Shown piece by piece: positions 52,801-55,800 of a stretch of 64,000 nt of DNA. The notes under the pieces are model-generated. The model saw nothing but the letters and a program-made list of their open reading frames with translations, made no database searches and was not told the origin of the DNA. The first letter of the stretch is position 1; each line of letters begins with the position of its first letter. The position numbers and the translations under genes were made by a program. The stretch is from Synaphobranchus kaupii (lineage: Eukaryota > Chordata > Actinopteri > Anguilliformes > Synaphobranchidae), in assembly GCA_029718625.1 (NCBI GenBank), contig CM056395.1, positions 26,025,660 to 26,089,659 on the forward strand. Direction: 5' to 3'.

Positions 52801-55800
52801 AGCTATCCGTTTGCGAGCGACCCGTCACTCTAGAATGGCGGTTGATGTTAGAGGGCAATGCACAGAGACAGCCGCTTTGAAGGGAACGTGGTAACATCCT
52901 TATTGGCCAGTGGCCTTGCAGTGGGATAAACTCCGTCTCTTTCTGCTCTGCGCCACATGCATTTAGGCAGTTACTCCAAAACACATTTGGGCCCCCCCCC
53001 CCCCACGCCGCCCCCATACCCCGTCACCCTTTCCCCCACACTCCAAACCCCCCCCCCCCCCCACCCCACCCCTGCCCCCAGCCGCTCCCTCCTGCTCTGG
53101 TTCAGCAGTTTATTATTATTGCTTACTCAAGCCTTCCTCGCTCCCGGCTCAGACTCTCTGGGCCTCTCGCTTATTCGGCCTGGCCCTCATTTGTAAACGC
53201 CACACCTTTCAGAGAACGCAGTCTCCCGCCGTCCCCCGGCACGACTTGGGAGCCAATTACTGTACAGGCAGATGTTTAGGGAACGGCATGCGCGCCACCA
53301 CGGGGGGGGGGGGGGGGGGGGGGGGGGGTCTATCCACAGGACGCGTAATTGTAGCCACAGTGTTGGTTTCTAAAAATGGCGCTTCCCCCACTGCAGAGAG
53401 AGCCAGTTTGCCCTCCAGGCTCAAGTACGCGTGTCATCCCGCCATCCCCGTTTTCAAAAAAGCAGCTTTGTTTCCCTCTCTCCACTTGGCGGGAACACTG
53501 ACTGAAAAGCGAGGTGAATTTAAGTTTGCGAGCGGCTTATCGCACCGAGGATAAACCCCGTCCCCCCCGCGCCCCGTCCCCCGCCTCGTCCCCACGCCCC
53601 CACCGACAAAAGCCGCCACGGCAGAAAACCAGGGCAAACAGCCAGGATGTTTTTTTTTGAAAAGCCACCGTGAGACTACGGTAAAGCCACCCCGCTCTGC
53701 TCAAGTATCACCTTTCAGAAAATTGCTTTGGACTGGCGATGCGTCTATTGCGCTGTAAATTCATCTGGCCTTTATTGCACGCTCCGGTTGGGAATTTTTG
53801 GACACGCCATTTCTTTGCCGTGACCGAAGCGTCACGTGCCGTCCGGCCACATTTTTCCGACAGCGCCGTTTAGAACCAGCCCCCTTTTAGCTTTCAGCCA
53901 TGCAGCTGATAAAAGAAAGAACCATGTTTTAAGCTTAAACGCTGCGAGTGGCCTGGTGTTGTGGTTTCGTATTTACTAAGCAAATGCACCAGCTCCTTAC
54001 AGGCAATTCAAGGGATTATCCTGTTAACCGGAGAAAATAGTGCCAGGGTACCATGGTTACCACCTCTGCTCTGGTGCCACAGCAACCTTAATGACATGAG
54101 TCAGTCAAAACCCCAGTTTAACCTCTTAGCAAATAAGTGACACCTGATAAAGCACTGGCTTATTTGAACCAATACAAGAACGTTTGGCTCTCCGCAACAA
54201 AACACTGCGATTGGTTCAATCAGCGAGTAGCTGGTAGTTCATTTCGGCTCAATCAGAATATATGCTTCCCACCCTGAACCGCTCTGCACTCCAAGAGTCC
54301 AGGTTATTAAGTTTAATTTAATAAGTCATTTATGGAGCCTTTCTTTTGTAACTCAGGTAAAGTTGGAGAGATCGGCTAAATCACCCCATCTAAAATCCTG
54401 TTAATTTTGTTTCAGGACAGAGTCTAGGCTACGGATTTGTGAACTACGTGGATCCAAAAGATGCAGAGAAAGCCATCAACACACTGAACGGCCTGAGACT
54501 GCAGACTAAAACCATTAAGGTAAGCAGAGTGGAGATGGGTTACCTGTATTCAGACTAAAACCATTAAGGTAAGCAGAGTGGAGACGAGTTACCTGTATTC
54601 AGACTAAAACCATTAAGGTAAGCAGAGTGGAGATGGGTTACCTGTATTCAGACTAAAACCATTAAGGTAAGCAGAGTGGAGATGAGTACCTGTATTCAGA
54701 CTAAAACCATTAAAGTAAGCAGAGTGGAGATGGGTTACCTGTATTCAGACTAAAACCATTAAGGTAAGCAGAGTGGAGACGAGTTACCTGTATTCAGACT
54801 AAAACCATTAAGGTAAGCAGAGTGGAGATGAGTTACCTGTATTCAGACTAAAACCATTAAGACAGGGATCTCAAACTCCAGTCCTGGAGGGCCGCTGTGT
54901 CTGCTGGTTTTTGTGATTTCCTTTCAATCAGCAGCCAATTTAGGCCTTGGAAACAAGGTGTGCAGACTCTTTAGCCAATCAATGACTTAAATTAAACACT
55001 TAAGTGCAGGAACACATCGAAAACCAGCAGACACAGCGGCCCTCCAGGATTTGAGTTTGAGATCCCTGCATTAAGGTAAGCAGAGTGGAGACGAGTTACC
55101 TGTATTCAGACTAAAACCATTAATGTAAGCAGAGTGGAGATGAGTTACCTGTATTCAGACTAAAACCATTAAGGTAAGCAGAGTGGAGATGAGTACCTGT
55201 ATTCAGACTAAAACCATTAAGGTAAGCAGAGTGGAGATGAGTTACCTGTATTCAGACTAAAACCATTAAAGTAAGCAGAGTGGAGATGAGTTACCTGTAT
55301 TCAGACTAAAACCATTAAAGTAAGCAGAGTGGAGATGAGTTACCTGTATTCAGACTAAAACCATTAAAGTAAGCAGAGTGGAGATGAGTTACCTGTATTC
55401 AGACTAAAACCATTAAGTTTAGGCAGGGTACAGCTTAAAGACATGAATCCCATCAGTGTATTATTCACTAGTCTATACATTCTGAGGAATGAAGCCAATG
55501 GAAGAATGGAGACAATGGAGGAAGATATTTGCTTGCCATTAATGTAGTTAAGTTTAAAGTAGTATACCTATTATTTCCCTTGGGTTTATTCTTATTTTTA
55601 TGCTTCATTGGTGACTGTGTTTTGTCAAAAAACAGCTAAATCAACGTGTTGTAGACAATGCTGAAATTTGACCTCTCCTTTTTTTCACCTAATAAGGTTG
55701 GCACTTAATTATGAACAGATTAGATATTCTTTGCTACAGGTTGTGGAGTCATTGTTGCAAACCTTCCTTTATATTTTAGCTCAACCCTGTGTTATTTGAC

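Follow-up and report, generated by a model that had tools for sequence, protein, structure and literature searches.

A minisatellite with tandem copies of a 5' splice site at an exon-intron boundary of elavl2 in Synaphobranchus kaupii

Human minisatellites that carry copies of a 5' splice site (donor) have been described in several genes, and are summarised here from excerpts, titles and reference lists of the papers cited. The variable number of tandem repeats (VNTR) c.1444_1467+7(16_21) of CBS has a 31-bp unit made of 24 coding and 7 intronic bases, is present in 16-21 copies, and varies within populations (PMC2630376). The 25-bp VNTR in intron 18 of ABCA7 starts at the GT that serves as the exon-18 donor, and use of the next unit's donor leads to retention of one unit, a frame shift and an early stop (PMC5954066). 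This one-unit retention amounts to 2 +/- 1% of transcripts (of the two figures that the source gives "respectively", this is the second) and is independent of VNTR length; longer VNTRs are associated with more skipping of the following exon and with lower total expression (PMC5954066). In the minisatellite of IFI6 (also known as 6-16 or G1P3), two downstream units serve as donors and three mRNAs are produced (PMC4526556), and the title of the original report, as cited in reference lists, describes the repeat as providing multiple splice donor sites. Minisatellite expansions at exon-intron boundaries also alter splicing in human segmental-duplication genes, for which 27 intron modifications are reported (PMC2812944). 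Here, a comparable array is described in elavl2 of the anguilliform fish Synaphobranchus kaupii, within a stretch of 64,000 nucleotides (hereafter the window; GenBank assembly GCA_029718625.1, contig CM056395.1, positions 26,025,660 to 26,089,659 of the forward strand).

The array (Table 1) lies across the 3' end of the elavl2 coding exon that completes the first RNA recognition motif (RRM1). Its repeat unit joins the final 18 coding bases of this exon (CAGACTAAAACCATTAAG) to the 31 bases with which the intron opens, and the authentic donor of the exon sits in the first unit. Tandem Repeats Finder reports a period of 49 bp at 54502-54861 and again at 55069-55416, and the units (all longer than 10 bp) are arranged head to tail; units 4 and 10 measure 48 bp. 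The sequence CAGACTAAAACCATTAA occurs exactly 15 times, and its last copy (55400-55417, including the final G) is followed by TTTAGG, which is not a donor. GTAAGC donors lie on the plus strand at 54520, 54569, 54618, 54667, 54715, 54764 and 54813, and then at 55076, 55125, 55174, 55222, 55271, 55320 and 55369, with a spacing of 49 or 48 bp and a single exception of 263 bp across an insertion; a donor is lacking at the final partial copy and at the exon end preceding the insertion. The donor context is AAG in nine of the 14 units, AAA in four (54715, 55271, 55320 and 55369), and AAT in one (55125). When the window was searched with a 21-mer over the donor, allowing up to three mismatches, all 14 matches fell in the array (mean of 0.00 in 100 shuffles), while GTAAGC alone is not enriched window-wide (29 occurrences on both strands versus 28.2 expected). 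An earlier note made from the same letters had named the gene, the exon, the 49-bp unit, the 14 donors with their contexts, and the in-frame stop that truncates the protein after RRM1, and each of these points was borne out by the repeat analysis, the tblastn and Protein Data Bank matches, the alignments to Conger and Anguilla, and the translations; what that description missed is the 206-bp insertion that splits the array.

Table 1. Coordinates of the array and of the elavl2 features in the window (a slash marks a splice junction)
Feature	Position	Strand	Details and evidence
elavl2 start-codon exon, coding part (METQLSNG...DKITG)	46640..46868	+	donor CAG/GTAATG; tblastn with human ELAVL2/4 probes, junctions, translation
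elavl2 coding exon ending RRM1, 104 nt, phase-0 intron after	54416..54519	+	tblastn, translation
Minisatellite, unit of 49 bp (18 nt of exon end, 31 nt of intron start); 14 units with a donor, 15 exon-end copies, one interruption	54502..55417	+	
Authentic 5' splice site AAG/GTAAGC	54520..54525	+	computed U1 pairing -9.5 kcal/mol
In-frame TAA reached by any exon extension past the first donor	54556..54558	+	
13 downstream donor copies	54569..55374	+	computed U1 pairing: 8 AAG at -9.5 kcal/mol, 4 AAA at -4.5, 1 AAT at -4.3
Left flank copy CATTAAGA of target duplication	54855..54862	+	flank comparison
206-bp fold-back insertion with ends CAGGGATC...GATCCCTG and arms of 55 nt (93% complementarity)	54863..55068	.	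inverted-repeat and flank comparison
Right flank copy CATTAAGG of target duplication	55069..55076		7/8 identical to CATTAAGA
Following coding exon of elavl2, 154 nt (VSYARPSS...VDQVT)	59664..59817	+	tblastn, junctions, translation
elavl2 coding exon (ISRGVGF...QAQRF)	61564..61789	+	tblastn, junctions, translation
elavl2 coding exon, last located in window	62950..62988	+	tblastn, junctions, translation

The 14 units are nearly identical, with variation at only four of 38 columns (positions -7 to +31 relative to the donor), namely the -1 base, a T/C change, a G/A change, and a one-base deletion, which supports a young or homogenised array. The pattern C-x-deletion-x is seen in units 2-5 and again in units 8-11, suggesting that a four-unit block was duplicated within the array. 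Decayed units were sought past both edges and rejected as candidates, since 117 of 500 shuffled sequences align to the unit as well as 55418-55520 does, and 198 of 500 as well as the exon upstream of 54502. With no repeat signal beyond either edge, the array therefore ends sharply, mid-unit, after the 18-nt exon end. The insertion looks like a hAT-like miniature inverted-repeat transposable element (MITE) that entered after the array existed; the hAT class is our presumption from its ends and the 8-bp flank duplication.

Eight of the 13 downstream units keep a donor that equals the first in computed U1 pairing (Table 1), compared with a range of -6.4 to -10.5 kcal/mol for the other four elavl2 donors (for the one at 59817, the input to the computation was shifted by one base). 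Use of a downstream donor lengthens the exon by 49 to 849 nt, and all 13 of the resulting products stop after 123 residues at the same TAA. This stop lies at least 164 nt ahead of the 59817/61564 junction, although with the second donor it is only 10 nt ahead of its own junction; because of the former distance, the 13 products are expected, under the distance rule of nonsense-mediated decay, to be targets of that pathway. The -1 G is absent from five of the 13 downstream donors, but selection against decoys is suggestive only, because the units share descent and the changes at 54715, at 55125 and in the run 55271-55369 may represent two or three events. The change from AAG to AAA also creates ATTAAA, a common variant of the poly(A) signal, at 54709, 55265, 55314 and 55363. 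Occlusion of the donors by RNA structure was considered as an explanation of donor choice, given that a TTACCTG-like stretch in each unit complements the AGGTAA of the donor, and was rejected on accessibilities computed with RNAplfold (window 150). The first donor (0.0114) is exactly as accessible as the median (0.0114) of 45 other AGGTAA sites, taken from both strands of the window. Values run from 0.0014 to 0.039 for the eight downstream AAG donors and reach 0.046 for the AAT donor, and a clearly more open state is predicted only for the four weak AAA donors (0.28-0.45).

The array is probably a tolerated by-product of mutation rather than a device, most likely without any function of its own, and the first donor would be used in most transcripts, with a small leak into decay. 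In this reading, a young or homogenised minisatellite would have captured the exon-intron boundary when a first duplication took 18 exonic and 31 intronic bases; growth may then have proceeded by unequal exchange or slippage, and the small fold-back transposon would have landed later. The first donor would dominate because it bounds an exon of normal length together with its own upstream acceptor, and a small share of transcripts, about 2% by analogy with ABCA7, would use a downstream copy, meet the TAA and be degraded. Several points weigh against this reading. Dominance of the first donor is not guaranteed, both because eight of the downstream copies have the same computed U1 pairing and because SRSF1 can shift the choice between competing donors towards the intron-proximal one (from an excerpt of a paper on DOK7; PMC5585400). 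Furthermore, the title of a report listed among the references of PMC2630376 (Lievers 2001) ties the CBS VNTR to reduced enzyme activity, which by analogy indicates that such arrays can matter.

Another reading, which builds on an idea of the earlier note, is that the array tunes elavl2 output. A sizeable fraction of transcripts, depending on array length, would be spliced from downstream donors or would omit the following exon, and would then be destroyed, so that allele length sets the dose. Under this scenario, which is unlikely, the full-strength pairing of eight of the 13 decoys would divert transcripts into products whose early stops are all placed for decay, and loss of the 154-nt exon that follows would likewise disrupt the frame; the lower expression and increased next-exon skipping that accompany longer ABCA7 VNTRs (PMC5954066) and the reduced activity named in the CBS title, for a repeat that likewise spans an exon end and donor (PMC2630376), would be its parallels. 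Yet downstream-donor use in ABCA7 is unchanged by VNTR length (PMC5954066), and the weakening of five of the 13 downstream donors at -1 argues, if anything, against a maintained decoy array. Dose tuning and decay are reasonable ideas by analogy, with precedents in other genes. A stronger form, in which the array would be a length-variable rheostat whose equal donors compete, so that a regulated share decays or next-exon skipping rises with length and the dose of Elavl2 in brain or gonad is set, is improbable.

The decoys might instead act without being spliced. The downstream donors could offer U1 additional places to bind, reinforcing definition of the upstream exon or, since U1 protects transcripts against early polyadenylation, guarding the 5.1-kb intron against it. 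Eight strong candidates by computed pairing lie within about 0.7 kb downstream, and natural U1 binding downstream of the PAH intron 11 donor enhances exon inclusion (PMC5933811, in excerpt), but the authentic elavl2 donor already pairs well with U1 and evidently needs no help, which leaves this role with little probability. That the array, or its copy number, is an artefact of assembly is very improbable, as an assembler would hardly have invented either the block-wise pattern of four variable columns or an insertion flanked by a target duplication. The copy number in the assembly may still be off, because the size of long, near-identical arrays is often wrong in assemblies. Least credible of all is that each unit forms a latent 15-nt micro-exon (TTCAG/ACTAAAACCATTAAG/GTAAGC) adding TKTIK at the end of RRM1 in a repeat-encoded isoform, for although 14 such TTCAG sites are present and the 15 nt are in phase and leave the product open, each of the 14 is preceded by only 9 pyrimidines in 20 bases versus 13-15 in 20 at the five real elavl2 acceptors (two of which were counted from a position shifted by one base), inspection by eye shows no clear branch point, 15 nt is very short for an exon, and the doubled peptide occurs in none of 240 homologues, mainly from other species (the best 120 of 1013 matches and the best 120 of 2990). 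The earlier note had held that only the first donor gives the normal protein, which agrees with the stop met from all 13 downstream donors while overlooking this weak in-frame alternative. Neither the read-through peptide VSRVE nor the doubled KTIKTKTIK was found in those 240 proteins, a comparison that does not test this locus. Among the best 120 of the 2990 matches, K[TS]IK is followed by VSYARPSS in 112, by VSFARPSS in two, by VAYARPSS in one and by other residues in three, and two lack K[TS]IK.

The elavl2 array belongs with the CBS, ABCA7 and IFI6 minisatellites, and both its structure and the idea of tuning by length are already in print for other genes. It resembles the CBS VNTR in that the end of a coding exon is copied together with the donor (as read from the name of that VNTR), and differs in the gene, in its unit of 49 rather than 31 bp, in the number of intronic bases (only 7 in CBS), and in that the CBS repeat is known to be length-polymorphic in people. 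As in ABCA7, the first unit holds the authentic donor of an exon and use of the next unit's donor would lead to an early stop; however, the ABCA7 repeat starts at the GT and contains no exonic bases, and its length acts mainly by causing the following exon to be skipped. Units supply alternative downstream donors in IFI6 as well, but there they give coding isoforms, as cited, whereas those of the elavl2 array lead to a stop. Among the papers given in short literature listings, none reports the elavl2 array, which says little. An exact 24-mer had no match in a collection of viral contigs, where fish sequence would not be expected.

The earlier description of the array as unusual is overstated, given these precedents and the composition of the window itself. 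Eighteen minisatellites, this array included, cover 13.7% of the window (12.3% without it), based on a list hand-merged from Tandem Repeats Finder output with a period of at least 10 and a length of at least 100 bp. When the arrays were shifted circularly, at least one of the 10 splice sites of the five exons fell in an array in 65% of placements (mean 1.37 sites); in the site list used for this test, and for the pyrimidine counts above, some sites were displaced by one or two bases, an error that is immaterial at that scale. In a window so rich in minisatellites, it is to be expected that some splice site lies within an array. Among the 18 arrays, only this one contains near-consensus donors on the sense strand of the gene (nine, with at most one mismatch), because it grew from a donor. 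Near-consensus donors in antisense orientation number nine in this array and four in the array at 20202-20348; the nine on the minus strand of 54502-55416 come from the stretch of the unit that is complementary to the donor.

The locus offers a natural experiment on how a 5' splice site is chosen, with 14 tandem donors of which nine share the same nine-base sequence and the first alone leads to the normal protein. Junction reads would show how far position alone determines which donor is chosen in a neuronal gene of a vertebrate. Should the first donor account for nearly all of them, the array provides a clean demonstration of exon definition, and if they do not, it is a dose allele; in either case it adds a non-human member to the CBS, ABCA7 and IFI6 set.

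The gene that carries the array is elavl2 on the plus strand, for which five coding exons were located by tblastn, with GT donors and AG acceptors where applicable. The frame spliced from these exons stays open across 250 residues, 248 of which are identical to ELAV-like protein 2 of Conger conger, the best match, and 247 to that of Anguilla rostrata. Among the matches listed, Conger is followed by an unnamed Acipenser model (73%) and then by ELAV-like 2 of Anguilla and Scleropages, and the first entry named ELAV-like 4 comes far down (among the best 120 of 2990 matches); the variable exons also fit the ELAVL2 probe better than the ELAVL4 probe. The exon ending RRM1 differs at one of 34 residues from HuD in the Protein Data Bank. 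Because the 250 residues are open and 248 are identical to Conger conger, the part of elavl2 in the window looks normal and there is no sign of gene decay in it. Within the window, tblastn with ELAVL2/4 probes detected no exon coding for RRM3, so the 3' end of the gene lies outside it.

The spliced translation over the array aligns without gaps to Elavl2 of Conger, Anguilla and Scleropages. Several deposited ELAVL2 and ELAVL4 models from mammals, reptiles, birds and fish stop soon after the same exon (...KTIK followed by an unrelated tail), and an RRM1-only product at the KTIK junction is thus annotated in other vertebrates. Together, the gap-free alignment and the truncated models diverging directly after KTIK suggest, from sequence comparison, that the exon junction is old, which bears on intron gain by tandem duplication of an AGGT-bearing stretch, where a new intron would arise inside a once continuous exon. 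The human segmental-duplication genes differ in this respect, being recent paralogues with novel introns (PMC2812944, in excerpt), whereas elavl2 is conserved and shows nothing that indicates a new intron.

Other repeats and splice-site features were observed elsewhere in the gene. The intron that contains the array also holds a larger minisatellite (57364-58949, 38 bp, about 42 copies). In the intron at 59818-61563, six tandem 48-bp units (60864-61151), about 0.4 kb upstream of the real acceptor at 61563, each carry an acceptor-like stretch after a pyrimidine-rich run (CTCCTGYAG/GC in five of the six and CTACTGCAG/GC in one), and these are possible decoy acceptors. A tail of the UnaL2 type, a family of long interspersed nuclear elements (LINEs) linked to eels, is located at 52106-52160 and, together with the Elavl2 identities to Conger and Anguilla, points to an eel or a near relative. 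Upstream of the start-codon exon, the sequence TTTTAGCAG at 46619-46627 forms a double acceptor of the NAGNAG type, and models from Conger and Anguilla read TGVIAAM where those from buffalo and alligator read TGQVIAAM, a difference consistent with a choice between two acceptors.
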